Shown here: positions 36,247 through 52,761 of the stretch, piece by piece
Layout of the letters: the number at the start of each line of letters is the position of its first letter
Position numbering within the stretch: position 1 is the stretch's first letter
Source of the DNA: Methanococcoides vulcani
GTDB taxonomy: Archaea > Halobacteriota > Methanosarcinia > Methanosarcinales > Methanosarcinaceae
Assembly (NCBI RefSeq): GCF_900111645.1
Contig: NZ_FOHQ01000004.1
Span: 1-64,000 of the forward strand
Direction: 5' to 3'
DNA: 64,000 nt
The notes under the pieces: generated by a model
What the model was told of the DNA's origin: nothing
Seen by the model: only the letters and a program-made list of their open reading frames with translations
The model's database searches: none
Made by a program: the position numbers and the translations under genes

Positions 36247-37137
36247 ATGATAGACGATGTACTCAAGGTCTTCAGGAAGCTGGATAGCAAAGACCTCCGA
36301 ATTCTAACCGGTATCGAGATCGGTATGAAAAATTTTGAATGGGTCCCCCTCGAAGAGATCCGTAAATATACCAAACTTTCTTTCGATAAACTCGAGTTCA
36401 GGCTTCTCAGGCTTTTTAGATCCAACATGGTAGTGGGTACGAAAACTCCCTATGAGGGCTATCAGATCTATTTTGACGGCTATGATGCACTTGCATTGAA
36501 CACATTTGTCAAAAGGGGTAGTGTCAGTGCCATAGGTGATGAGATCGGTGTCGGCAAGGAATCAGTGGTCCATGAAGCTATCAGGGAACCCGAGCTTGCA
36601 ATTGCAGACCCTATACCTGTTATCATCAAGTTCCACAGGGAAGGAAGGACAAGCTTCAAACGCGTAAAAAGAGTGCGTGATCACCTTGTTGACCGTGAAC
36701 ACTTCTCCTGGATATATGCAGCCAGGCTTGCTGCCAAAAGGGAGTATGATATCATGCAGACATTATATGACAAGGTTTCAATACCTAAACCGCTTGATCA
36801 CAACAGGCATGCAATTGTCATGGCTCCTGCAAAGGGAAGCATCCTTGTAAAGACCAGACTTCTGGAACCGGAATGGGTTCTCGATGAGATCCTTTCACAG
36901 ATAAAAGTCGTTTATTCCCTTGGAATAATACATTCCGATCTTAGTGAGTACAATATCTTCGTAAGTGATGAAGGCGTGGAGTTCATAGACTGGCCTCAGT
37001 ATGTTACAGTGGACCATCCGCATGCGGATGAGTTGCTTGAGAGGGATGTGTCCAATGTGTTGGCACACTTCAGGCGGAAGTACGATCTTGGGAAGGATAT
37101 GGGTGAAGTGATCTCCCAGATCAAAGAAGATGTATAA
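36247..37137 (+). CDS. rio2: RIO2 serine/threonine kinase
   Basis: 296 residues: N-terminal winged helix, then RIO kinase fold with ATP-loop region GDEIGVGKES, catalytic HSDLSEYNIF and metal-binding IDWPQ. Acts in 30S subunit maturation in archaea and eukaryotes. Confidence 0.95.
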   Translation: MIDDVLKVFRKLDSKDLRILTGIEIGMKNFEWVPLEEIRKYTKLSFDKLEFRLLRLFRSNMVVGTKTPYEGYQIYFDGYDALALNTFVKRGSVSAIGDEIGVGKESVVHEAIREPELAIADPIPVIIKFHREGRTSFKRVKRVRDHLVDREHFSWIYAARLAAKREYDIMQTLYDKVSIPKPLDHNRHAIVMAPAKGSILVKTRLLEPEWVLDEILSQIKVVYSLGIIHSDLSEYNIFVSDEGVEFIDWPQYVTVDHPHADELLERDVSNVLAHFRRKYDLGKDMGEVISQIKEDV

Positions 37138-37192
37138 AGGTTAACATCAGAACTGTATGTTAGTTTGAAATAATTATCATGGGTGATTGTTT

Positions 37193-38653
37193 ATGCTAAA
37201 TGGTCTCAAAGGCAACATGAATGGTAAATTAAAATATCTCTCCGATGAGGATTGTGAAGAGATCCATTACTCTTCTTTAGAAGTGTTAGATGAGACTGGT
37301 CTGAAGATTGAATCGAAAAAAGCTTTAGACAAATTGGATGAATTTGGGTGTGATGTGAATAGAAGAACTTCTATTGTCAGGTTCCCAAGTTATCTTGTAG
37401 AAGAATGCTTGAAATACACCCCTCCTTCAGTAAAGCTGTATGGAACTGATTCAAAATATGATATTAAAATTGGAAAAAGGAGAACTTACGTATCCACGTG
37501 TTCTGGGCATGGAATAATCGATAGAAAAACCGACTTAGCCAGAGATGGGCTACTAAATGATGTTGCAGAAGGAACTTTGGTAGCAGAAAATCTTGAAAAC
37601 ATTCATTCCATCATTCCCCCTTTAGCCGGCGTCTCCGATGTCCCTCATGAGGCAATGACTCCAGTAATATTGGGTGAAACTCTAAAAAATACTCATAAGT
37701 CTGTCGACTTCTACTTAACTGGAGGGGCGAATGCTGACAAAGACATGAAAAACATTCTTGAGTTATGCAAAATAATTGCCGGGAGTGAATCAAAACTGGA
37801 AAAAAGACCATTTATGATGTTTATAATTGACCCGCTCTCCCCTCTGACTTATACGGAGGACCAAATAGAGGCATTGTTCCGAAGTGTTGATGCAGGCCTA
37901 CCTGTTTCAATTATGCCTGGAGCACAAGGTGGTGCTACCGCTCCTGTAACCCTTGCTGGAATGCTTGTGCAGACCAATGCGGAATTTTTGGGAGGGGTTG
38001 TGCTCGCAAATTTGGTAAAAAAGGGAGCTCCAGTTTTATATGGCCATACCAGCACAATTATGAATATGCATACAGGCGTTTACACCGGAGGTGCAATTGA
38101 AATGGGAATACTCGGAGCTTGCGTTTCCCAGTTAGGCGCTTATTATAACGTCCCAACAAGCGGTTTCTATCCCATGTCAGATTCTCACATTCCTGATCAG
38201 CAGGTAGGTTACGAAAAAACGATGCAATGGGTCCTAACGGCATTAAGTGGCATGAATTATGTGTCTGGGGCAGGAAATATTGAAAATGGAGCCCTAATCT
38301 CTCTTGAACAGCTAGTCATAGATAACGAGATTGTAGGAATGATTGATAGAATGTTAAACGGAGTTCAGATAGACGATCAAAGACTTGCAGTTAGTGTAAT
38401 AGGAGACATTGGACCCGGCGGTAATTATCTCAAGCATGCACACACAAGAAACTGGATGCATAACGAATATTTTACCCCAAATATTAGTGAAAAAGATACA
38501 TATTCAGAATGGGAGAAAAAAGGAGGTGGAGACGTGGTGAAAAGAGCAAGAGAACATGTTGAAACTATACTTAAAAATGAAGTAAGTCCGGTTGAAAAGG
38601 ATATAATCAAAGACATAGAAGTTTTCCAGAATAAACTATTGAGGCAAAAATAA
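37193..38653 (+). CDS. pyrrolysine-free MttB-family (COG5598) methyltransferase
   Basis: 486 residues of the trimethylamine methyltransferase superfamily, start ATG at 37193 behind GGGTGAT. No in-frame TAG, so it belongs to the non-pyrrolysine branch that includes glycine betaine methyltransferase MtgB and the carnitine and proline-betaine enzymes; these transfer a methyl group from a quaternary amine to a corrinoid protein. The region NVPTSGFYPMSDSHIPDQQ corresponds to where true MttB carries pyrrolysine. No corrinoid protein is in the window. Next to an MttP-like permease and choline lyase genes, a quaternary-amine substrate is likely, but which one is not visible. Confidence 0.9.
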   Translation: MLNGLKGNMNGKLKYLSDEDCEEIHYSSLEVLDETGLKIESKKALDKLDEFGCDVNRRTSIVRFPSYLVEECLKYTPPSVKLYGTDSKYDIKIGKRRTYVSTCSGHGIIDRKTDLARDGLLNDVAEGTLVAENLENIHSIIPPLAGVSDVPHEAMTPVILGETLKNTHKSVDFYLTGGANADKDMKNILELCKIIAGSESKLEKRPFMMFIIDPLSPLTYTEDQIEALFRSVDAGLPVSIMPGAQGGATAPVTLAGMLVQTNAEFLGGVVLANLVKKGAPVLYGHTSTIMNMHTGVYTGGAIEMGILGACVSQLGAYYNVPTSGFYPMSDSHIPDQQVGYEKTMQWVLTALSGMNYVSGAGNIENGALISLEQLVIDNEIVGMIDRMLNGVQIDDQRLAVSVIGDIGPGGNYLKHAHTRNWMHNEYFTPNISEKDTYSEWEKKGGGDVVKRAREHVETILKNEVSPVEKDIIKDIEVFQNKLLRQK

Positions 38654-38686
38654 ATTTGTCCTAACATATACTCATATATATATTTT

Positions 38687-38708
38687 TTTTACGAAAGCTT
38701 ATATATAG
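38687..38708 (+). promoter_or_regulatory. upstream BRE/TATA element
   Basis: TTTTACGAAAGCTTATATATAG. It resembles the element at 39167-39190 (ACGAAA..C-TTATATA) and would start a transcript near 38733, giving a leader of about 540 nt before the permease gene or an independent small RNA. Confidence 0.4.
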
Positions 38709-38856
38709 AAAAAAACAATACTTTTTTTATAGGCACTTATAAAACCTGAAGGCAGACATTGTTACACCTGGAAGGGGTGACTTATGGGGGGGCAGGGGTT
38801 TTCCCCATGTTTGGATGAAAGGTTACAGGAGCATACACTAGTGGTTACAAGAGCTT

Positions 38857-38965
38857 AGGCTTTGTAGAGATCAAGCCAATATCGGAGTCCAAAAGTAATG
38901 ATATGCAGTGTTAATTTTGGAAGGACGATATGGATCTCAAGTCCTATAGGATTTCTACAAAGCCT
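38857..38965. repeat. MITE-like element with terminal inverted repeats
   Basis: AGGCTTTGTAGA (38857-38868) and TCTACAAAGCCT (38954-38965) are perfect 12-bp inverted ends, extendable to 15 with mismatches, enclosing 85 nt without coding capacity. Such ends look like those of IS-derived mini-elements. No clear target-site duplication is seen. Confidence 0.4.
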
Positions 38966-39166
38966 TTTTACTTTTCTAAATCAGACAGGGAAGGGTTGCA
39001 GGAAACATATGATGATCGCCCAAACCATGCCAAGGACGGTCAGCACAATTTGTGATTTCATAGTTTATCTACAAACCATTGCGCTCAGTTGGAGGAGCTT
39101 CCCCAATCAAGCCATTGTATCTTCTAGTATATAAAACAATTTGTCAAAAAAAATAATATAAAAGCT

Positions 39167-39190
39167 TTTCTACGAAATCCTTATATAATA
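39167..39190 (+). promoter_or_regulatory. BRE/TATA promoter of the permease cassette
   Basis: TTCTACGAAATCCTTATATA, with TATA about 90 nt before the ATG at 39277; transcript start near 39212 and a leader ending in AAAGGAG. Confidence 0.5.
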
Positions 39191-39276
39191 GATGGGAACA
39201 TATTTCCTATGCCTTAAGGAGTAAAGGCAGATGAAATGAACAAAAACTTGATGGAGTCATAAAAGGAGAAATTATT

Positions 39277-40329
39277 ATGGACATTCAGGAATTAAGAAAA
39301 TTAGAAATTAAGAAAAGAGTCAACAAAGGTTATATGTGGGCACTTTTCACTGCAGTTTTGTGGGCTTTATGGTATGTTCCGGGTACAATTATCTGGGCCA
39401 TACCTCCATTCGATGCAATGTGGTATGACCTTGCCCTCCCTGACTATTCAAATGCAACAACGGCAACAATGATGTGTGCTGTATTGATAACTGCATTCAA
39501 TGCATTGACTGTTATCATTGCCCTGTTAGTATGGAACGGGGTACTTGGAAAGTTTGGTGAAATAAAGAGAACCCTTAAAGAATTACATCCCTGCAGCAAG
39601 TGGTTTTTTGCAGCTTCCATGTTCGGTGGGCCAGTTGCAATATTAGGTGCATTTATGGCAATAGGATTTATTGGTCCGGCATTCGGTGCTGTATCAGCTC
39701 TTTTGTACCCTGTTGCCGGTTCAATTCTCGCCTATTTCTGGTACGGTGAGAAAATAAGTAAAAGAGCCGCTATCGGTATTTTTGTTATTATTATTGGTGG
39801 TGTCACCATTTTCGGCGGAGGTATCATGGCAGAATTAGGTACCGGAAGCGTAGCATGGCTTGGATATGTCGGTGGTCTGATGTGTGCTCTCGGTTGGGGT
39901 ATTGAAGGTGCAATTGCCGGAAAAGGTCTTGACATCGCAGAGCCTGATGTAGGTATTACTATCAGGTTCCTTGGTGAGAACATCATCTGGTGGCTCATTA
40001 TCATACCTATTGTTGCACTGGCAGGTTACCCAATAGTCGAATATGCAATTGCAGCACTGAACCCACTGTCTATCCTAGTGCTTTCATTTGCAGGTATCAG
40101 TTTTGGATACTGTTATGTGGCTTGGTACAAGTCCTTCCCTCTCGTCGGTGTAGCACGTGGACAGGGTGTGGCAAACCTCTACGCTATTTTTGTAGTGATG
40201 TTCCTTTACCTGTTCCTTGCACAGGTTCCAGCATGGACTATACTCGTCGGTGGCGCACTTTGTGTCCTCGGTAGCTTTGTAATGATCTCTGAAGAAACAG
40301 GTGAAATGGAATCACTGAGAGGTGAGTAA
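39277..40329 (+). CDS. MttP/MtmP-like methylamine-type permease
   Basis: 350 residues with about ten hydrophobic helices; in general layout (two repeats, KGYMWALFTAVLWALWYVPG start) it resembles the methylamine permeases encoded beside Methanosarcina methyltransferase genes, which belong near the drug/metabolite transporter superfamily. Substrate could be tri- or other methylamines, glycine betaine or choline. It heads a three-gene cassette and precedes cutC. Strong AAAGGAG upstream. Confidence 0.75.
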   Translation: MDIQELRKLEIKKRVNKGYMWALFTAVLWALWYVPGTIIWAIPPFDAMWYDLALPDYSNATTATMMCAVLITAFNALTVIIALLVWNGVLGKFGEIKRTLKELHPCSKWFFAASMFGGPVAILGAFMAIGFIGPAFGAVSALLYPVAGSILAYFWYGEKISKRAAIGIFVIIIGGVTIFGGGIMAELGTGSVAWLGYVGGLMCALGWGIEGAIAGKGLDIAEPDVGITIRFLGENIIWWLIIIPIVALAGYPIVEYAIAALNPLSILVLSFAGISFGYCYVAWYKSFPLVGVARGQGVANLYAIFVVMFLYLFLAQVPAWTILVGGALCVLGSFVMISEETGEMESLRGE

Positions 40330-40330
40330 A

Positions 40331-40627
40331 ATGGCTGGAGAACGCCCAATAAAATTCAGGTTGCTTGAGCTATTCTCTGATGAGAAGGAGCACTGGAACA
40401 ACGAGATCGTCACACAGATGCAGAAAGAATACAACATGAACAGCAACTTCGGAAGGGATTCGCTCAACTTCGATATCCTCGAGCTTGCTTCAGGTGGTAT
40501 GCTCAAATCTGTAGAGTCAAAGGTCGATGAGGATGGTGTATACAAGAAAGGCTTCCTCTTGCACAAATATGTGATCACTGATTTCGGAAAGGTTCGTGCA
40601 TCCGATGCATGTCTGGAGTACGTATAA
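40331..40627 (+). CDS. small winged-helix-like protein of the permease cassette
   Basis: 98 residues from the ATG at 40331. It looks like a compact wHTH (KFRLLELFSDEKEHWNNEIVTQM, then KYVITDFGKVRASDACLEYV). It may control the permease or methyltransferase genes, or serve as a cytosolic partner of the permease. 1-nt gap to the permease stop. Family not recognised. Confidence 0.7.
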   Translation: MAGERPIKFRLLELFSDEKEHWNNEIVTQMQKEYNMNSNFGRDSLNFDILELASGGMLKSVESKVDEDGVYKKGFLLHKYVITDFGKVRASDACLEYV

Positions 40628-40639
40628 GGAGGTTTGAAT

Positions 40640-40798
40640 ATGGGAGTAATGAACGACTATATGGTAGGTTACTATGGCGAAGGCTTTGATATGACCATGG
40701 CCCCTGTACCAGCAGCAGAATATACCTGGATGATCGCGATCATCGTTATTGCTTTGGTCGCATTGTGGCAGGCAAGGACATTTGTGTCCCAATTCTAA
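40640..40798 (+). CDS. 52-residue single-helix membrane protein
   Basis: A small protein with an acidic, Met-rich N terminus and one transmembrane helix (about residues 30-44) ending ALWQARTFVSQF. A perfect AAGGAGG stands before the ATG at 40640. It closes the permease cassette and may be a permease accessory subunit. Its last 39 nt are repeated exactly at 44525-44563 beyond the cut genes. Confidence 0.8.
   Translation: MGVMNDYMVGYYGEGFDMTMAPVPAAEYTWMIAIIVIALVALWQARTFVSQF
40760..40798 (+). repeat. 39-bp direct repeat, left copy
   Basis: The 3' end of the small membrane-protein gene. The identical sequence is at 44525-44563. Together they bracket a 3.7-kb segment that contains cutC and cutD. 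Confidence 0.9.
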
Positions 40799-40809
40799 AA
40801 GTATTTTAT

Positions 40810-40836
40810 TGCCCGATTTTCGGGCATTTTATTTTT
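40810..40836 (+). terminator. hairpin terminator after the permease cassette
   Basis: TGCCCGA-TTT-TCGGGCA, perfect 7-bp stem, followed by TTTTATTTTT. It separates the permease cassette from cutC and implies a separate promoter for cutC. Confidence 0.8.
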
Positions 40837-40896
40837 CAAATATTTTACTGATATGTAAGTATAATCGAAATTTGAAAGTAATGAGAGGTGGAAGAT

Positions 40897-43332
40897 ATGA
40901 AAATGAGCGCAAACAGTACAAAAGTCTCAAACGAGACAAACGTAACGGGAGTTCCGGATGGAATAACAGAGCGTCTTAAGAAGCTGAAAGAAAACTTCCT
41001 GAAGCAGGTCCCGACTATCACAACATATCGTGCAAGAGCGATAACAAAGATAGCCAAGGAAAACCCTGGAATGCCGAAAATATTGTTACGCGCAAAGTGC
41101 TTCAAATATTGCTGTGAAACGGCGCCACTTGTAATACAGGATAACGAGTTGATTGCAGGTTCTCCGTGTGGCGCACCGAGAGCAGGTGCTTTTTCCCCTG
41201 ATATTGCCTGGAGATGGATGGAAGAAGAAATCGATACCATAGGCACTCGTCCGCAGGACCCGTTCTATATTTCCGAAGAAGACAAGAAGATCATGCGCGA
41301 AGAACTGTTCCCTTATTGGAAGGGTAAATCGGTCGACGAATACTGCGAAGATCAGTATCGGGAAGCCGGCGTTTGGGAACTTTCCGGTGAATCCTTTGTT
41401 TCGGATTGCTCATATCATGCCGTAAATGGTGGAGGAGACTCATGTCCTGGTTACGACGTAATCCTGATGAAAAAGGGCATGAAAGATATTCAGCGCGAAG
41501 CAAGAGAGCATTTGGAAACACTGGATTATGATAATCCGGAAGACATTGATAAGATCTATTTCTATGAAGCAATCATAGATACCACCGAAGGTATTATGGC
41601 TTATGCAAAACGGCTGTCGGAATATGCAGCAGAGCTGGCCGCAAAGGAAACAGACCCTAAGCGTAAAGCAGAGCTAATGAAGATATCCGAAGTCAATGCA
41701 AAAGTTCCAGCCAATAAGCCAAGCACCTTCTGGGAAGCTATTCAGGCGGTGTGGACCATCGAATCCTTGCTTGTGGTGGAAGAAAACCAGACAGGCATGT
41801 CTATCGGACGTGTTGACCAGTATATGTATCCCTTCTACAAGGCGGACATAGAAGAGGGCAGAATGACTGAATTTGAAGCATTCGAGCTGGCAGGCAGCAT
41901 GTTGATAAAAATGTCCGAAATGATGTGGATAACAAGCGAAGATGCCTCAAAATTCTTTGCAGGCTACCAACCGTTTGTAAACATGGCCGTAGGCGGTGTT
42001 ACAAGAGAAGGCAGAGATGCCACTAACGACTTGACTTATTTATTGATGGATGCGGTCAGGCATGTTAAAGTTTACCAGCCTTCATTGGCTTGCCGGATAC
42101 ACAATAATTCTCCACAGAAATATATGAAGAAAATAGTTGAAGTTGTTCGTTCCGGTATGGGTTTCCCTGCTTGCCACTTTGATGATACACATATAAAAAT
42201 GATGCTGGAAAAGGGCGTATCCATAGAAGATGCTCGTGACTATTGCTTGATGGGCTGCGTAGAGCCGCAGAAGTCGGGAAGACTTTATCAGTGGACTTCC
42301 ACTGCATATACTCAGTGGCCTATTTGCATCGAGCTTATTTTAAACAGAGGTGTTCCGCTTTGGTACGATAAACAAGTTTGCCCTGATCTGGGTGACATAA
42401 ACAACTTTAAAACCTACGAAGAATTTGAAAATGCTGTAAAAGAGCAGATCAAATACATTACAAAATTGTCAAATGTCGCCACGGTTATTTCCCAAAGAGT
42501 TCACAGGGAGCTTGCACCAAAGCCGCTCATGTCCATCATGTACGAAGGTTGTATGGAAGACGGTAAGGACGTTTCATCCGGTGGGGCAATGTACAATTTC
42601 GGACCGGGGGTTGTTTGGACAGGCCTGGCCACATATGTAGATTCCATGGCTGCAATAAAGAAATTAGTGTTTGATGATAAGAAATACACCTTGCAGGAAT
42701 TTAATGAGGCTTTAAAAGCCGATTTCGAAGGCTATGAGCAAATCAGAACGGATTGTCTGAATGCACCTAAATATGGAAACGATGATGATTATGCGGATTT
42801 GATCGCTGCCGATGTGACTAACTTTACGGAAATGGAACACAGGAAACACAAGACCCTGTATTCGACGTTGAGCCACGGTACGCTGTCAATTTCAAATAAC
42901 ACGCCGTTTGGACAACTTACGGGAGCTTCCGCAAACGGAAGGAAAGCTTGGATGCCGTTGTCGGATGGTATCAGCCCTACTCAAGGAGCAGACTTCCTGG
43001 GACCTACTGCTATCATTAAGTCGGTTTCAAAGATGGCTTGTGACGATATGAACATAGGTATGGTTCACAACTTTAAGTTTATGTCTGGCTTGCTCGACAC
43101 ACCTGAAGGGGAAAATGGCGTAATTACATTGCTGAGAACTGCATCGTTATTTGGTAACGGCCAAATGCAGTTCAACTACCTGGATAATGAAACATTGCTT
43201 GAAGCACAGAAACATCCTGAACAGTACCGTGACCTGATAGTTCGTGTGGCAGGGTACAGCGCATTCTTTGTTGAATTGTGCAAAGATGTGCAGGATGAGA
43301 TCATCAGCAGAACAATGCTAAAACACACTTAA
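40897..43332 (+). CDS. cutC: choline trimethylamine-lyase (glycyl radical enzyme CutC)
   Basis: Radical cleavage of choline to trimethylamine and acetaldehyde. 811 residues from the ATG at 40897. Every active-site residue known from the Desulfovibrio enzyme is found in the same spacing: Tyr173 and Asp181 ([10 protein letters not shown]), Phe354 and Phe360 (FAGYQPF), Cys454 and Glu456 (GCVEP), Tyr471, and the radical Gly786 in RVAGYSAFF. Cys-to-Gly distance is 332, as in the Desulfovibrio protein. The shorter N terminus lacks any microcompartment-targeting extension that I can see. CutC is a bacterial family, so transfer is likely. Followed 50 nt later by its activase. Confidence 0.95.
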
Positions 43333-43382
43333 AAGAAATGCGTGAAATGGCAAAATAAAAAACAGTTAAGTAGGTGATGAGG

Positions 43383-44336
43383 ATGAGCAATAAAGATGCA
43401 GGAGCAATTGAACAAAAAGCTTCCATTTTCAACGTGCAAAGGTTCAACATATATGATGGACCCGGAGTGAGGACCATCATATTTTTCAAAGGATGCCCAC
43501 TGCGTTGTGAATGGTGCTCAAACCCCGAAGGGTTAAAGCCAGGATATGACGTGATGGTAAAAAGCAACGTGTGTACCGATTGCGGTGCATGTGTAGAGGT
43601 CTGCCCTGTGGATATGCACATGATCCTGGAAAGTAATAATAAGCATAAGGTGCGGCGCGACATCCAATGTATCGGTTGTCACAAATGCGAGGGTGTTTGC
43701 CCCGCATCTGCTTTATTTATAGCAGGGGAAGAAAAAAGTATTTCTGAGCTTTTAGAGATCGTCGAAAAAGACAGAGCTTTTTATGATACTTCGGGTGGAG
43801 GAATTACCATTGGTGGCGGCGAACCTCTGTTGCAGCCAGAAGCGGCCGCAAATTTGCTAATGAAATGTAAGCAGGAAGGGATAAACACTGCAATCGAAAC
43901 ATCCGGTTATGCAAAGCAAGAGGACCTGTTTAAAGTGGCAGAATTTGTGGATTTATTCCTTTTCGACATAAAACATATTTCGCCGGAGAAGCACCTGGAA
44001 TTTATGGGAGTTCGCAATGAGCTTATTTTAAGCAATCTGCAGGAACTTATTAGGCGCGGATATAATGTGCTTACCAGAATGCCTTTGCTTAAAGGTGTAA
44101 ACAGCAGCAAAGAAGACATAGAAAAGGTCATTGATTTTTTGAAACCTTTCCGTGAATGCGAGAATTTTAAAGGCATAGATTTGCTTCCGTACCACAAGAT
44201 GGGTGTACATAAGTATCAGCAGCTTGATAAAGAGTACCTTTGTAAAGAGGATGCGAGCTTAAATGTAGAAGAGATGAAAGAAATTGAAAGTTGGTTCAAA
44301 GCGCACGATTTCAATGTGAGAATAGTCAACCATTAA
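43383..44336 (+). CDS. cutD: choline TMA-lyase activating enzyme (radical SAM, CutD)
   Basis: Installs the glycyl radical on CutC. 317 residues: radical-SAM motif CPLRCEWC, an inserted ferredoxin domain with two [4Fe-4S] sets (CTDCGACVEVCP, CIGCHKCEGVCP), and the SAM-binding GGGEP. This is the normal layout of glycyl-radical activases. Start chosen at ATG 43383 behind GGTGAT; ATG 43377 is possible. The activase is oxygen-sensitive, which suits a strict anaerobe. Confidence 0.94.
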   Translation: MSNKDAGAIEQKASIFNVQRFNIYDGPGVRTIIFFKGCPLRCEWCSNPEGLKPGYDVMVKSNVCTDCGACVEVCPVDMHMILESNNKHKVRRDIQCIGCHKCEGVCPASALFIAGEEKSISELLEIVEKDRAFYDTSGGGITIGGGEPLLQPEAAANLLMKCKQEGINTAIETSGYAKQEDLFKVAEFVDLFLFDIKHISPEKHLEFMGVRNELILSNLQELIRRGYNVLTRMPLLKGVNSSKEDIEKVIDFLKPFRECENFKGIDLLPYHKMGVHKYQQLDKEYLCKEDASLNVEEMKEIESWFKAHDFNVRIVNH

Positions 44337-44437: not shown

Positions 44438-44563
44438 TGGATTGCCATTATAATTGACTATAGCTCCTGCAAATCAATATCTGAATACGCCTGGTTACTT
44501 GCTATTCTGATAGTTGCAGTGGTAGCATTGTGGCAGGCAAGGACATTTGTGTCCCAATTCTAA
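44438..44563 (+). pseudogene. degenerate second copy of the 52-residue membrane-protein gene
   Basis: An open frame without start codon reads EYAWLLAILIVAVVALWQAR and on to TFVSQF, 19 of 26 residues identical to the protein at 40640-40798. The last 39 nt are identical in DNA. Upstream it is diverged and partly matches in another frame (ATAGCTCCTGCA), so the 5' part is lost. Confidence 0.75.
44525..44563 (+). repeat. 39-bp direct repeat, right copy
   Basis: Identical to 40760-40798. Marks the distal boundary of the cutC-cutD segment. Confidence 0.9.
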
Positions 44564-44796: not shown

Positions 44797-46782
44797 ATGC
44801 AAAATCCAGATTATCAAACCGGGGTAATATTCGGCATAGACATCGCAAAAGGCTCTTCCAGGGCCCGGGAGTTGCCAAGGTATGCAGTTGCTGTGTTGAA
44901 AGAGGGAGAGGTAACTCATCATAAAATGGTGCGCCTTCCGCGTATATTGAAGATGGTTCGCGAAGAGCATCCTGAATATATCGCAGTGGACAACATTTTT
45001 GAACTGGCTCCTAGCAAGAAGGAGCTTGTGCGTTTTCTTGAGAAACTTCCTGAAGGTGTCCGGCTTGTACAGGTTACAGGCGGTCTGCACAAGAAATCCC
45101 TTTTACATCTTGCAAAGGAAAATGGACTATCCTTCAACCAGTTCGATCCAAACGAGGAGGCAGAGGCATGTGCGCGTCTTGCAAGTATGGGAGTTGGCTC
45201 TGAAGTATCCCTTTTTGAAGACATCACGAAGATCAAGGTGAGTCGTGCCCGGTCGCTCGGACGTGGAGGCTGGAGCCAGAACAGGTATCGCCGTAAGGTC
45301 CATGGGGCTGTGAGGGAAAGGAGTCGTGAGGTCGAGGCGATATTGAAGAAAGCATCAAAGGAACACGGATATACGTATACAAGCAGGATATCCAGTGGAT
45401 TCGGAGGTTATGTGCGTGCCGAGTTCACAGTATATGCAAAGAGGAATCAGGTGCCTGTTGGTTCCGGTTCCACTGCGGATGCCCAGATCCGTGTAAGCAA
45501 CGTGGTGCGAGATAAGATCCAGTATACTCCCTTGACCAGGGTCAAAAGGCGCCCTACTATTGTGGGTATCGACCCCGGCACCACGGTAGGAATAGCTATA
45601 CTCTCGTTCGATGCTGATCTTCTGCTCTTGAAAAGTGTTCGTGGCATTTCCCATGATGAAGTTGTCAAACTTATTGCTGAATATGGGAAGCCTGCGGTCA
45701 TCGGTACGGATGTCACACCAACTCCGGGTTCTGTGGAGCGGATCCGGCGCAGTTTCAATGCTGTGATAAGTACGCCTTCTACGGAAATTTCCTCTGAGGA
45801 GAAGATCGCCCTTGGAAGACCATATGGCTATTCCAATGACCATGAACGTGACTCTCTTGCCGCTGCTCTTTATGCTCACCGGAATTACAAGAACATGTTC
45901 TCGCGTGTTGAGAAGAAAGCACCTCCCCATCTGAACATGGATAAGATAAAACTGTATGTGATCCAGGGTGCTTCCATAGGTGAAGCTATCGAGAAAGTTA
46001 CCGGGGTGCCGGTTCCCGAGAAGAAACCTGTGAAGGTTTTGGAAACTCCTGATGAAGGTACTGAAGAAAGGGACAGGAAAATTTCAGAGAAACTTAAGTT
46101 AAAAGATACTCAGATCAGCAATCTCCGGGATTATCTCCAGGAACTTAAGAAGGAGTTGAAGTCAAAGGATAAGCGTATCTCAAAACTTGAACTTAAACTG
46201 GAGAAGATGAGGGAAGCTAATCATCTTCAGATTCGTAAGGACAAGGAGATCGAGATACGTGAACATAAGATCTCAGTTCTGAAGAAAGACCTGCGCAGGT
46301 CTAAAAAGTCATTAAAAAAGGCCCATTCCAACATCAAGAAATTGAAGCAGATAAGAAAGATGGAGATCAAGGGTGAGGGGATCCCTGTAAAGATTCTTCT
46401 GTCCTTTACCCGTGAGGCTATTTTAGAAACAAAGGACCATCTTGGCATCAAGAAAGGGGATGTTATCTTCCTTCAGGATGCAAGCGGTGGCAGTACAGTG
46501 ACAGCTTCAATGGTAGTTGAACTGGGTGTTCGTGCTGTGATCACTTCCTCGGATGTGACCTATGCTGCAGAAGATGTTTTCTTCAGGGCAAATCTACCTT
46601 TGCTCAAAAATGTCAGGATACAGAGAGTTGACGATTTTGCAGTGGTAGACCCTGCCCTTCTTCAGGAAGCTCTGGATGGGTGGGAGAAGGAAGCTGAGAG
46701 AAAGCGTCAGGAAGAAAAAGAAAAGAAATTGAAGCATCTTGTGGATGAATATCGAAGTGAGAGGCGCAGGGGTCTTACCTGA
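44797..46782 (+). CDS. DUF460 (COG2433) archaeal RNase H-fold protein
   Basis: 661 residues: two RNase H-like segments (IFGIDIAKGSSRAR near the start, VGIDPGTTVGIAIL near residue 255), a long coiled coil (about 420-515) and a C-terminal Lys-rich domain. The Asp-containing strands suggest a RuvC/YqgF-type nuclease fold. Conserved across Euryarchaeota; function unknown. Confidence 0.88.
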   Translation: MQNPDYQTGVIFGIDIAKGSSRARELPRYAVAVLKEGEVTHHKMVRLPRILKMVREEHPEYIAVDNIFELAPSKKELVRFLEKLPEGVRLVQVTGGLHKKSLLHLAKENGLSFNQFDPNEEAEACARLASMGVGSEVSLFEDITKIKVSRARSLGRGGWSQNRYRRKVHGAVRERSREVEAILKKASKEHGYTYTSRISSGFGGYVRAEFTVYAKRNQVPVGSGSTADAQIRVSNVVRDKIQYTPLTRVKRRPTIVGIDPGTTVGIAILSFDADLLLLKSVRGISHDEVVKLIAEYGKPAVIGTDVTPTPGSVERIRRSFNAVISTPSTEISSEEKIALGRPYGYSNDHERDSLAAALYAHRNYKNMFSRVEKKAPPHLNMDKIKLYVIQGASIGEAIEKVTGVPVPEKKPVKVLETPDEGTEERDRKISEKLKLKDTQISNLRDYLQELKKELKSKDKRISKLELKLEKMREANHLQIRKDKEIEIREHKISVLKKDLRRSKKSLKKAHSNIKKLKQIRKMEIKGEGIPVKILLSFTREAILETKDHLGIKKGDVIFLQDASGGSTVTASMVVELGVRAVITSSDVTYAAEDVFFRANLPLLKNVRIQRVDDFAVVDPALLQEALDGWEKEAERKRQEEKEKKLKHLVDEYRSERRRGLT

Positions 46783-48398: not shown

Positions 48399-48672
48399 TT
48401 GGGTTTCCAATGTTTGCTCCATCGATTTGTTGATCGATCCATTCGGTGTATCTGATATTAGGCAGAACTTATTCAGCAAAAGGAATGTCCCTTTTTAATT
48501 TCTTCTTTTTGCTTTTAACCATTTTTTGATTGATACTATTTTTATTTAAGTTTCAATATTATCACTCCAAATTTACTTTATCTCATTTTGTTTTCGATTC
48601 ACCTCTTTCATTTGCAAAACATTATCAACTTTGAACACTAAAATTATATCAAAAAGTTTGAGAGTGATCCCA

Positions 48673-49497
48673 ATGACCGATATTATCTGTTCCCAGCAGC
48701 GTGTTGAAGAATGTGTCATCAAAGAGGAACCCTACTATGTTCCTGTTGGAAATGAGGTCGAGATATTCAGGGCTGCTTATGAGAATAAACTGCCTGTCAG
48801 CCTCAAAGGGCCAACCGGTTGCGGGAAAACACGTTTTATCGAATATATGGCCTACCATCTGGCACGCCCTCTTATTACGATCTCCTGCCATGAGGACCTG
48901 ACGGCTAACGATCTGATTGGCAGGTTCCTAATCAAAGGTGAAGGGACCGAATGGAACGATGGACCCTTAACAGCTGCTTTGAAGAGCGGTGCTATCTGTT
49001 ATCTTGATGAGTTCGTGGAAGCAAGGATGGATACAAGGGTCGTGATCCATCCGCTGACAGATGACAGGCGTATAATGCCAATCGAGAAAATGGGCATTGT
49101 ACTTCAGGCACCACCTGAGTTCATGCTGACCATCTCCTACAATCCGGGATACCAGAGCGTGCTGAAGGACCTGAAACAGAGCACAAGGCAGAGATTTGTT
49201 TCCATTGATTTTGATTACCCGCCGGTTGAACTTGAAACCGATATCGTTGCCCATGAAAGTGGTGTGGATGAGGAAACTGCCCGAACCCTTGTGGATATCG
49301 GACACCGAATACGTAATTTCAAGCAGCATGGTCTTGAGGAAGGGGTAAGCACCCGTCTTCTCATATATGCTGGTATGCTGATCAGGTCCGGGATAGGACC
49401 AAGGGAAGCATGCAGTGTCGCCATGGTTAAGCCGATCACCGATGATGCCGACCTCCAGAAAAGCATAGATGAGATCATATCAGCTATCATGGAGTGA
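48673..49497 (+). CDS. MoxR/CbbQ/NorQ-type AAA+ ATPase
   Basis: 274 residues with Walker [10 protein letters not shown] near residue 38, Walker B AICYLDEF and sensor SYNPGYQ. These ATPases work with a VWA-domain partner to mature or reactivate enzymes. The partner gene follows 6 nt later. Client unknown in methanogens. Confidence 0.93.
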
Positions 49498-49503
49498 AGC
49501 TAA

Positions 49504-52500
49504 TTGTCTCAGGATGAAGGGGAGGTCGTTCATCTTAAGGATGTACTTGATATCCTGGATTCAACAGGTATGCTCGAGGACCTGTCAGATGTGGAAATTT
49601 CGGAAATATCTGTTGAATTTGGGAAATTGCCTCTGGAACTGCTTGTACTTTTCAGAAAACACCCATCCCGATTTGTGGAATGGTTCTCTATCTGGAGATC
49701 TTCACTTAACAAGGATAAGGGCCTTGGAAATGTTTATTTTTCGAACACATTTCCTGTACTTCTTGACCTTGGTTCTGCCACTTTCAGCGGATGGGTCGAG
49801 TTGGTCACAGAACTTAATTCTTTGAATCCCAGTGTCGGGAAGGCATTTCTGAGAAATATCGAAAAGCTTGTGCCTTTGATGGATCCGGATATTTTAGAGA
49901 TCTGGTATCCGATAGTACAGGATCTCGCTGGGAGAAAATGGAGAGTTGCTATCGAGCTTATTGAGAGGACTGTGAATGTTCTTCCTGCTCTTCCAAAACA
50001 CCAGAGAAAATTGCTTTTGCTTTCATCAAAGGAATTCAGGAATATTGATCTTCAGCTGTTCCTCACATTCTTTACCAGTGCACCTCTTGCATTAGCTGCA
50101 CTCAGTAAAAGCGAGTTCGATAAATGGACATATCTCGGAGGAGAACTTGCTTTTGAGAACCGTGAGGTTGCCACCTTATTCCTGAAGATAACTCCAAAGT
50201 TCATTGGCAGGATCGACATTGAAGATCTTGCGGAATATGTGGAAATGGGCAAAGAACTCTTTTCATATGACGAACCAGAAGCTGCGAGAACTTTCTATGA
50301 GGCTGTTTTCAGGGGATTGGGAAATGGTCTTCACAGGTCTGACAGGGAAGGGACAAGACATCTCATCGATATTGGTGTGCAATTAACTAACATCTGCTGG
50401 AGGTGTGTTGAGAGCTTTTTTGAGAACGCACCTGAGATGCGAAATCATCTGGATGAAGAGGAGTTTGATGAGTGGGTCTCTATCGGGAAGGGCATTTCAC
50501 AGAGTTCGACATTTTATGGCTCGGATTATTTCCATAGTTCTCTTTCTGTATTGAAGAACACCGATCGGAAATACTATCCGACATTATTCAACAATGCAAA
50601 GCTTCTGGCAGAAAATAACGGAATGCTTGCAGGTATCTATTTCTCTATCCTGTCAGATGTACTGCTCAATATACATCCCAGGGAGATCGAAAGATGGGTG
50701 CATACAGGTCTTGATGTCTTTGGAATTGACAGAGAAATGGCATTCAGTTTTTTCAGGAATTCCCCTGCATTGTTAAAGGACCTTGATGTTACAGAGCTCG
50801 ATGAGTGGGCCAAAAAAGGTCTTTCCATTTTTGAAAGAGATCGTGGTGGAGGCAGGTCCTATTTCTCGCTTATGTCAAAAAGTGCAACTGAATTTGCTGA
50901 AAAACTGATGAGTGGTGTGGCACTTAAACGTGTGTCAAGGATCCTTAAGTATTACTCAGTGGGCATATCGGGAATAAATTTCACAATACGTTCAAAGAAC
51001 TTCCTGTCAGGTGAATTCAGCAAGTATCCTAATCCGATAGTTTCCGGCAGGACGATCTATCTGGAGCCCACGGTAAAAGGTTATGGTGATTTCGAGGAGA
51101 ACTTCACGATCTATAAGTTGGCTGTAATGCATGAAGTGGGACACATCCAGTTTGGAACTTCGGTCTTTGAGTTAGAGGCTTTTTTGCCACTGGTCGAAAA
51201 GATCGGCATGGATATTTTGGATCTTCCTGGGGATGTGGGAGTTGATCCTGCTGGTAAGTCCAATGCAGTTGCATCCGTTATCGGAAAGCTTTCGGCTCCA
51301 TTCATTGCTGCTGACATAATGGGAATTATAGAAGATGCAAGGGTGGAGTACATGACAACATCCCTTTACAGGGGATTGCGCCGGGAGTTTGAAAAAGTAA
51401 GGATGCAGATGTCACAGAACAGAGCTCCAGATACGTTCGGTATTGGAAAGTTCACGGAATCTCTTTTGCTTTACTCTGTTGGTATCGAACCATCGTTTGG
51501 AATTGAGGCAGATCTTAAGGAAATTGTGGATTTTTCTCATGAAATACTTGTAAATAACGTTTTCAAACCTGATTCATCCACCCTTGATTCACTTGAAGTG
51601 ACTATCGATATCTATGAAATGCTTACTGATCGTTTTGGTCCTCTGGAATTACTGGAATATGAACCTATAAGGAATTTTGATTATCGTGGAATGGGTGTTG
51701 GTGCGTCCTCTCTCACTCAATCTCGTAGTGAAGAGTTTTCGGAGCAGGTAATGGAATCTTTTATCCCGCAGACAGTCCTTCCGGATGACGAAGAGTTCAT
51801 AGAGGGCAGACCGGGCAAAGGGCCGGAATATGCAAATTCGAAGAACTGGGAAGTGCTTGGCAGCTATAGTTATGATGAATGGGATTCCCGGATGCAGGAT
51901 TATAAGAACGACTGGTGCACTGTCTATGAAGTATCCCCTTCAGGAAGTGACAATGAATTCTACCTTGAGGCCAGAGAGCATTATGCACGTGAGATCACTC
52001 TGATCAATCGTATCTTCAAGATGATGAAACCGGAATCATTCCGCAAATTACGCAGGCAACTGGATGGGGATGATTTTGATCTTGATGCTTTGATCGAGGC
52101 TTTTACTGACCGGAAGTGCGGTATCAATCCGACTGATAGGTTGTACATCAGAAGGGATAAGCGTGAGAGGGATGTTTCCACTCTTTTCCTTCTGGACATG
52201 AGTGCATCAACAAGGAAGAAACTGGAAAATGGTCGTCGGATACTTGATGTGGAAAAAGATTCCCTTATCATCATGACCCAGGCCCTTGAGAGCATAGGAG
52301 ATAAGTATGCAATTGCAGCCTTTTCCGGTAATACCAGGTCCGATGTTGAATTCTATACGATAAAGGATTTCAACGAGCACTTCTCAGAGGATGCGGAATG
52401 CAAGATAAGCGCCTTGGAACCTGCAATGAACACAAGGCTAGGTGCTGCGATCCGTCATTCTATTTCAAAGCTTAAGGACATCGATGCTAGGGTAAAGCTT

Positions 52501-52761
52501 CTTGTCCTGCTTTCAGATGGTGACCCTTACGATCTTGGTTTTGCTGAAGGCAAATACGAAGGGCAGATGGCCATTGAGGACACAAGGGTTGCAATACAGG
52601 AAGGCAATGCCCTTGGGATGCACTTCTTCTGTATTACCGTTGACAGTGAAGCAGGGGAGTATCTGGATACCATCTTCTCGGATGTGGGGTACACTATAAT
52701 CGATAATGCGGCTTCACTGCCGGAAAGGCTTCCGATGCTTTACAACAGGATAACTACCTGA
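49504..52761 (+). CDS. large CbbO/NorD-like VWA protein
   Basis: 1085 residues, longer than usual for the family. The N-terminal half is a series of about 35-residue helical repeats (for example FFRNSPALLKDLDVTELDEW). A zinc-site-like HEVGH is near residue 543 with EDARVE near 610, a pair also seen in CbbO/NorD. The C terminus is a VWA domain with MIDAS motif DMSAS near residue 897. With the AAA+ partner it should form a metal-dependent remodelling complex. TTG start, 6 nt after the ATPase stop. Confidence 0.88.
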   Translation: MSQDEGEVVHLKDVLDILDSTGMLEDLSDVEISEISVEFGKLPLELLVLFRKHPSRFVEWFSIWRSSLNKDKGLGNVYFSNTFPVLLDLGSATFSGWVELVTELNSLNPSVGKAFLRNIEKLVPLMDPDILEIWYPIVQDLAGRKWRVAIELIERTVNVLPALPKHQRKLLLLSSKEFRNIDLQLFLTFFTSAPLALAALSKSEFDKWTYLGGELAFENREVATLFLKITPKFIGRIDIEDLAEYVEMGKELFSYDEPEAARTFYEAVFRGLGNGLHRSDREGTRHLIDIGVQLTNICWRCVESFFENAPEMRNHLDEEEFDEWVSIGKGISQSSTFYGSDYFHSSLSVLKNTDRKYYPTLFNNAKLLAENNGMLAGIYFSILSDVLLNIHPREIERWVHTGLDVFGIDREMAFSFFRNSPALLKDLDVTELDEWAKKGLSIFERDRGGGRSYFSLMSKSATEFAEKLMSGVALKRVSRILKYYSVGISGINFTIRSKNFLSGEFSKYPNPIVSGRTIYLEPTVKGYGDFEENFTIYKLAVMHEVGHIQFGTSVFELEAFLPLVEKIGMDILDLPGDVGVDPAGKSNAVASVIGKLSAPFIAADIMGIIEDARVEYMTTSLYRGLRREFEKVRMQMSQNRAPDTFGIGKFTESLLLYSVGIEPSFGIEADLKEIVDFSHEILVNNVFKPDSSTLDSLEVTIDIYEMLTDRFGPLELLEYEPIRNFDYRGMGVGASSLTQSRSEEFSEQVMESFIPQTVLPDDEEFIEGRPGKGPEYANSKNWEVLGSYSYDEWDSRMQDYKNDWCTVYEVSPSGSDNEFYLEAREHYAREITLINRIFKMMKPESFRKLRRQLDGDDFDLDALIEAFTDRKCGINPTDRLYIRRDKRERDVSTLFLLDMSASTRKKLENGRRILDVEKDSLIIMTQALESIGDKYAIAAFSGNTRSDVEFYTIKDFNEHFSEDAECKISALEPAMNTRLGAAIRHSISKLKDIDARVKLLVLLSDGDPYDLGFAEGKYEGQMAIEDTRVAIQEGNALGMHFFCITVDSEAGEYLDTIFSDVGYTIIDNAASLPERLPMLYNRITT

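Follow-up and report, generated by a model that had tools for sequence, protein, structure and literature searches.

A pyrrolysine-free MttB homologue beside apparently borrowed cutCD genes in an amine island of Methanococcoides vulcani

How would a methanogen obtain methyl groups from choline when its genome places the gene for a pyrrolysine (Pyl)-free MttB homologue close to genes for choline cleavage? The question is raised by a 64,000-nucleotide stretch of DNA of Methanococcoides vulcani (assembly GCF_900111645.1, contig NZ_FOHQ01000004.1, positions 1 to 64,000), which is termed the window. Choline-derived methane in saltmarshes has been described as a two-step partnership, in which cutC-bearing bacteria make trimethylamine (TMA) and Methanococcoides consumes it (PMC6331629). 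A first-pass annotation of the window proposed that the MttB-like enzyme demethylates choline directly or else glycine betaine, giving the cell, together with a nearby choline lyase, two choices for methyl groups. Papers designated by PMC numbers are cited for excerpts of their text; compared genomes and loci are designated by handles (G and L numbers).

The MttB-like gene and its clade

The gene occupies 37193..38653 on the plus strand and encodes 486 amino acids from an ATG at 37193; the open reading frame of 488 amino acids opens at a TTG at 37187 and includes neither an in-frame stop nor a TAG over its full length. The product matches the Pfam MTTB family (PF06253) at residues 12–476 with 312 bits (cut-off 25), and its score against NCBIfam TIGR02369 (429 bits) is under the cut-off of 525 for the Pyl enzyme. 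In the alignment, Met328 (ATG, 38174..38176, plus strand) corresponds to the Pyl334 codon in M. barkeri MttB. These results, along with the tree and the predicted structure described below, bear out the identification of the gene as a Pyl-free MttB homologue. Its proximity to choline and permease genes was likewise correctly described: genes for an EamA-type permease, CutC and CutD follow within 6 kb downstream.

Gly110, Met249 and Tyr364 of MttB serve Pyl chemistry (PMC9842639), and the aligned residues of the window protein are Cys, Gly and Ser. Directly before the Pyl site, the window protein has Phe-Tyr-Pro, whereas mostly small residues occur elsewhere in the alignment (row L009 left out). 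The aromatic residues near Met328 may hold a quaternary amine. The AlphaFold model of the protein (pLDDT 89.9) has the TIM-barrel fold and the C-terminal dimerisation part as in MttB. The best match among solved structures is MttB (7xcl; Z 53.7, rmsd 2.4, 478 residues, spanning residues 3–486 of the window protein), followed by MtgB (9yce; Z 51.9, rmsd 2.0, 469 residues).

The Rfam family PYLIS_3 (RF02510) matches positions 38174–38273, starting at Met328, with 44.7 bits (threshold 38). The same family matches the MtgB-like L003 (39.3 bits), and the more distantly related non-Pyl MttBs L178 and L179 match it below threshold. Because these also match, the signal follows protein homology, and its interpretation as a pyrrolysine relic was rejected. 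A match to CsrB in L007 (24 bits, gathering threshold 71) was attributed to chance.

For the tree, 59 sequences were gathered and 11 identical ones dropped, leaving 48, with 33 Pyl MttBs. In this tree, which was made by a quick method whose program warns of some long branches meeting, the window gene and five others form one clade with 100% SH-aLRT support, separate from the Pyl MttBs (99%) and from MtgB. Among the matches listed from 111 genomes of the family, members of this clade (59–75% identity) occur in 6 of the 11 genomes of the genus, and the next matches are Pyl MttBs at about 35% identity. Among 392 genomes of the phylum, nothing outside the genus stands clearly above ordinary MttBs (304 bits at best vs. 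753–975 bits within the clade). The residue at the Pyl position is Met in five of the six members and Lys (AAA) in that of G017 (L007, 1501–2958). By its profile scores and its place in the tree, the window protein is neither a Pyl TMA methyltransferase nor MtgB, and its gene represents a new subfamily within a known family of enzymes, with a clade seen only in this genus.

The dN/dS values of the window gene are 0.07 against G021, 0.12 against G023 and 0.13 against G017; they are rough, as dS exceeds 2 in two of the three pairs and the G025 pair is saturated at synonymous sites, and suggest a working gene. Its codon usage correlates with that of core genes at 0.24, whereas nine core genes from the window reach 0.55–0.88 when taken singly, suggesting that the MttB-like gene may also be mobile. 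The corresponding values are 0.42 for cutC, 0.44 for cutD and 0.49 for the permease gene.

The own genome has three MttB genes: the window gene, the Pyl MttB gene, whose operon reads mttB-mttC-mttP-mtbC-mtbB, and an MtgB-like gene (C10:162037–163413), which adjoins a corrinoid gene and a gene for a BCCT transporter that passes the glycine-betaine cut-off. The MtgB-like gene is drawn next to MtgB in the tree, at an unresolved fork; it passes no MtgB model, and the corrinoid protein beside it is below both MtgC cut-offs, its label being taken from the tree position and the BCCT gene. Another genome of the genus, G022, also carries an MtgB-like gene among the matches listed, and MtgB is recorded for M. 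vulcani SLH33 (PMC6498239, PMC6855144). Since the own genome has this separate gene and the window protein, in a clade of its own, does not group with MtgB, demethylation of glycine betaine by the window enzyme, as the first-pass annotation had proposed, is unlikely, and this substrate was rejected.

No corrinoid gene stands beside the MttB-like gene in the window, and nine corrinoid matches lie elsewhere in the own genome. In G018 and G025, mtqC is located divergently beside the MttB-like gene. A corrinoid gene at C8:382658 was considered as a leftover partner and rejected, as it stands before a TAG-containing gene that we take to be mtbB.

Anatomy of the island and arrival of cutCD

The island is bordered on the left by the rio2 kinase gene (36247..37137), which is conserved in the genus, and on the right by a conserved 661-aa gene (44797..46782), presumably DUF460-like. 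The slot between them holds the MttB-like gene, an mttP unit and cutCD, and all the island features given here lie on the plus strand. The mttP unit comprises the gene for an MttP-type permease of the EamA family (39277..40329), a paralogue of the permease of the own mtt operon (78% identity), and genes for a 101-aa protein (40322..40627) and a 52-aa small protein (40640..40798), which are 98% and 100% identical to their mtt-operon copies. At the DNA level, the 101-aa and 52-aa genes (40322–40798) are 96–99% identical to the mtt operon (L045, 12497–12973), whereas the permease gene preceding them is 67–89% identical, suggesting recent gene conversion or duplication. A terminator-like hairpin with a T run (40810..40826) in the gap between the mttP unit and cutC is a consensus match only, and the scanned region has nine such sites vs. 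6.3 expected.

The cutC gene (40897..43332) encodes choline trimethylamine-lyase, with 811 amino acids from an ATG that is preceded by a plausible ribosome-binding site; the open reading frame opens at a GTG at 40888. The cutD gene (43374..44336) encodes the radical SAM activase of CutC. Both products are equivalog matches, with 1673 bits for CutC (NCBIfam cut-off 1050) and 506 bits for CutD (cut-off 360). The glycyl radical Gly, the Cys-x-Glu motif and the choline-binding Tyr, Asp and Phe of CutC are all present, and the window protein has identical residues at 10 of 10 checked positions of the solved enzyme with bound choline, including Gly786, Cys454 and Glu456. In the numbering of the reference CutC, the catalytic residues are taken to be Cys489, Glu491 and Gly821, the species of the reference and the numbering offset likewise being our assumption. 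The choline contacts used for mapping are those of the solved CutC (PMC8473560).

CutC exceeds its cut-off in one of the 111 family genomes and one of the 392 phylum genomes, namely the own genome in both of these overlapping sets; weaker matches to the model come from two more genomes of the family, where they are fragments, and from 21 more of the phylum. The best 80 of 255 CutC relatives, from a scan that may leave out the window's own genome, are all Bacillota by title. Over 814 columns, CutC shares 86% identity with an Anaerosalibacter protein, whereas in a tree of the 76 of these 80 loci with a usable frame (FastTree, midpoint root) it joins four Peptococcaceae (95%); the two comparisons thus point to different possible donors. 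When cutC is compared with five bacterial relatives, pS is 0.81–0.85 (saturated) and pN is 0.08–0.10, suggesting selection since divergence, though this may have acted partly outside the archaeon. The cutCD genes were apparently borrowed from bacteria, probably from Bacillota.

Gene order was compared across the corresponding region of six relatives. In G018, G019, G020 and G024, the two border genes are directly adjacent, 33–248 bp apart. In G021, the slot holds the MttB-like gene, genes for DUF2284, a VWA protein, a MoxR-type ATPase and a 165-aa protein, mtqB, mtqC and the mttP unit. In G025, pieces of the island and an mtq cluster that includes the MttB-like gene lie next to the 661-aa gene, and rio2 is absent in the stretch read. 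The MttB-like gene of G018 lies with a divergent mtqCB on another contig, that of G017 follows mttB-mttC-mttP, and that of G023 is cut off by the end of its contig.

Beyond cutD, a second 52-aa gene has left a remnant of its 3' end (44483..44563; 80% identity over 81 nt), and from within this remnant onward the sequence shares 79% identity with the junction in G021 over 291 bp. The remnant and the G021-like sequence indicate that an mttP unit bordered the 661-aa gene before cutCD arrived; by this trace in the DNA, cutCD is a late insertion into the island. The ancestral island may also have had mtqBC; no remnants of these genes were detected in the gap at 38654–39276 by comparison with the proteins of eight loci. 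This 623-bp gap, located before mttP, has no detectable similarity to the other compared loci.

A gene pair for a MoxR/NorQ-type ATPase and a VWA protein is located near the island (48631–49497 and 49504–52761). A second, diverged MoxR/VWA pair is present with DUF2284 in the mtqBC clusters of G021 and G025 (L041, 12185–15997; L042, 3376–7229). The pair in the mtqBC clusters may mature the methyltransferase.

The two marks of a GRM1 choline microcompartment, an N-terminal encapsulation helix on CutC and shell genes, were found neither in the window nor in the own genome. A simple motif for the helix tag matches 70 of 76 bacterial CutC proteins, and the window CutC lacks it. The CutC core is preceded by 24 residues from the GTG, or 21 from the ATG, in the window protein vs. 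a median of 60 in the 69 measurable bacterial proteins; among these bacterial proteins, just L100, which is at a contig end, also has fewer than 30. Profile search of the own genome gave no match to the shell family PF00936. In tblastn searches, shell genes were present in 77 of 80 bacterial cut loci (the best 80 of 255); in those of at least 14 kb, a shell gene was present in 67 of 67 and an aldehyde dehydrogenase gene in 66 of 67, whereas the window has neither. There is no gene for an aldehyde enzyme within the island. In the own genome, AOR is absent; a single match to the Fe-ADH family (63 bits, cut-off 31) may serve something else, and of two matches to the ALDH family (475 and 56 bits), the better one reaches the cut-off of none of the 25 specific families listed.

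A distant homologue of the permease is present in 63 of the 67 bacterial cut loci of at least 14 kb (28–31% identity in the five best matches), which makes transport of choline or TMA a reasonable guess for the MttP-type permease. Genes for a permease of about 360 aa and an 88-aa protein are common in the bacterial cut loci (L074–L153; 63 of the 67 of at least 14 kb), with a layout like that of the archaeal mttP unit; the archaeal 101-aa protein matches none in these loci.

Routes from choline to methane

Use of choline, betaine and dimethylethanolamine is described for M. vulcani (PMC7374477); of these three compounds, M. burtonii and M. methylutens are reported to use dimethylethanolamine alone (PMC4239356). 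Five Methanococcoides strains formed ethanolamine from choline (Watkins 2012, cited in PMC7374477), and when choline is used directly, dimethylethanolamine arises as an intermediate (PMC7374477). The choline/tetramethylammonium methyltransferase genes mtqBC were published in 2026: in M. methylutens Q3c, MtqB, a non-Pyl homologue of MtmB, demethylates both compounds together with MtqC, and other non-Pyl methyltransferases were not produced on either of them (PMC13044021).

Among the matches listed for the MtqB of G025, relatives have 54–77% identity in G018 and G021 and 42–47% in G095 and G005, which belong to other genera. The matches listed include no MtqB orthologue in the own genome, where the three matches are two Pyl MtmBs (31 and 32%) and a non-Pyl MtmB (32%). 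A Pyl-free MtmB homologue other than MtqB is encoded at L198 8254–9648 (G000:C13:116274–117584), and at least ten other genomes have TAG-free genes that match the MtqB query with similarly low scores.

With a probability of about 0.6, CutCD is the main choline route, leading from choline through TMA to the Pyl system, and the MttB-like enzyme is an accessory quaternary-amine methyltransferase. If the species names assigned to the genomes are right, the ability to use choline goes with mtqBC or cutCD rather than with the MttB-like gene, which makes CutCD the likeliest route and suggests an accessory role for the MttB-like enzyme. CutD would make the glycyl radical on CutC, which would then split choline into TMA and acetaldehyde, and the TMA would be demethylated by the own Pyl MttB/MttC and subsequently by the dimethylamine (DMA) and monomethylamine (MMA) systems, yielding methane. 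The MttP-type permease would transport choline or TMA. In the MttB-like enzyme, the TIM barrel would hold a quaternary ammonium compound above a corrinoid protein of the methylamine type that is encoded elsewhere in the genome, with the Pyl cavity probably filled by Met and the neighbouring aromatic residues. The assignment of CutCD as main route has points against it: the island has no aldehyde enzyme, with the Fe-ADH and ALDH matches of the genome being of unclear specificity; the ethanolamine formed from choline by the five strains (PMC7374477) is not expected from CutC; the MttB-like gene has no corrinoid neighbour and a codon usage unlike core genes; and the genome names in the phenotype comparison are inferred. 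The earlier idea of two routes to methyl groups survives in another form, since the same slot carries mtqBC in G021 and cutCD here; the part that invoked direct choline demethylation by the window enzyme is possible, but not favoured.

In that direct route, the MttB-like enzyme would demethylate choline to dimethylethanolamine in parallel to CutC. An MttB-like gene near amine genes in all five loci read far enough is consistent with it, as is the action of an MttB member of E. limosum, MthB, on phosphocholine (PMC12155760). In Q3c, however, choline is handled by MtqB with no non-Pyl MttB produced (PMC13044021), and a clade member, with Lys where MttB has Pyl, is present in G017, taken to be M. 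burtonii, a species reported not to use choline (PMC4239356); direct demethylation is judged unlikely. Very doubtful is action on dimethylethanolamine, the methylated ethanolamine left after a first demethylation, even though this compound arises as an intermediate when choline is used directly and three genomes have the MttB-like gene linked to mtqBC. Although M. methylutens is reported to use dimethylethanolamine (PMC4239356), the matches listed include no clade member in G019, taken to be this species; in addition, quaternary amines are the substrates of those non-Pyl MttBs that have been characterised (PMC13044021), the tertiary amine TMA being the substrate of the Pyl enzyme.

Two further explanations concern cutCD rather than the MttB-like enzyme. 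The genes might be silent or non-functional in the archaeon, having been inserted without the shell and aldehyde enzymes that bacterial loci carry, with choline used otherwise; the unclear fate of acetaldehyde would fit this. Both frames are intact, however, with the checked active-site residues kept and a plausible ribosome-binding site before the ATG at 40897, and the pS and pN values argue for selection, perhaps partly outside the archaeon, which makes silence improbable. An assembly artefact joining bacterial cutCD to archaeal DNA could have arisen at the 101-aa/52-aa stretch left of cutC, a misjoin-prone repeat of the mtt operon, but is highly improbable: the right flank is G021-like and continues into the 661-aa gene, the contig has 229,630 bases, and genome contamination is 0.58%.

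CutCD as the main choline route would belong to a broader picture, in which a methanogen with bacterial cutCD and no microcompartment takes choline through TMA to methane in a single cell, with the Pyl-free MttB as a second, direct entry for methyl groups of quaternary amines; this picture is tentative, its chances being put slightly below even. What is surprising is the presence of archaeal, shell-free cutCD in an amine island, for which no earlier report was found in a literature search covering open-licence papers. The excerpts of PMC6331629, PMC8547467, PMC10653893, PMC6325248 and PMC13258700 report no archaeal cutC, and all archaeal gut genomes in the set of PMC10653893 are stated to be non-TMA-producing. 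If the picture is true, a methanogen with its own cutCD breaks the division of labour between bacterium and methanogen for choline, the cutC genes counted in metagenomes do not all come from bacteria, and choline use in a species seemingly without mtqBC is explained. An archaeal CutC also raises the question of how acetaldehyde is handled in a cell without a shell, and the MttB clade would offer a small, defined target for finding a further methanogenic substrate.

Comparison with known systems

The Pyl MttB of M. barkeri (7xcl) shares fold and length with the window protein at 29–31% identity; in contrast to it, the window protein has no TAG in its gene, Met at the Pyl position and a score below the TIGR02369 cut-off. 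MtgB (D. hafniense, 2qne/9yce; C10:162037 in the own genome) is likewise a Pyl-free member of the MttB superfamily (Z 51.9–52.0, 28% identity), but is located on a separate branch of the tree and has Leu where the window protein has Met; unlike MtgB systems, the window gene adjoins neither a betaine transporter gene nor a corrinoid gene. MthB of E. limosum is an MttB-superfamily enzyme for a choline derivative and works with the kinase MthK (PMC12155760).

The MtqB/MtqC system of Methanococcoides (PMC13044021) is found in a similar type of island, and G021 keeps mtqBC in the slot that holds cutCD here; MtqB differs from the window enzyme in being an MtmB homologue (PF05369), not an MttB, and no orthologue of it was found among the matches listed for the window genome. 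With the bacterial CutC/CutD microcompartment locus (GRM1; PMC6325248), the archaeal genes share the profile cut-offs passed, the active site and the activase gene directly downstream. They differ in their archaeal host, in the missing N-terminal helix and in the absence of adjoining shell and aldehyde dehydrogenase genes, and the permease gene that adjoins the archaeal cutCD is a native archaeal paralogue.
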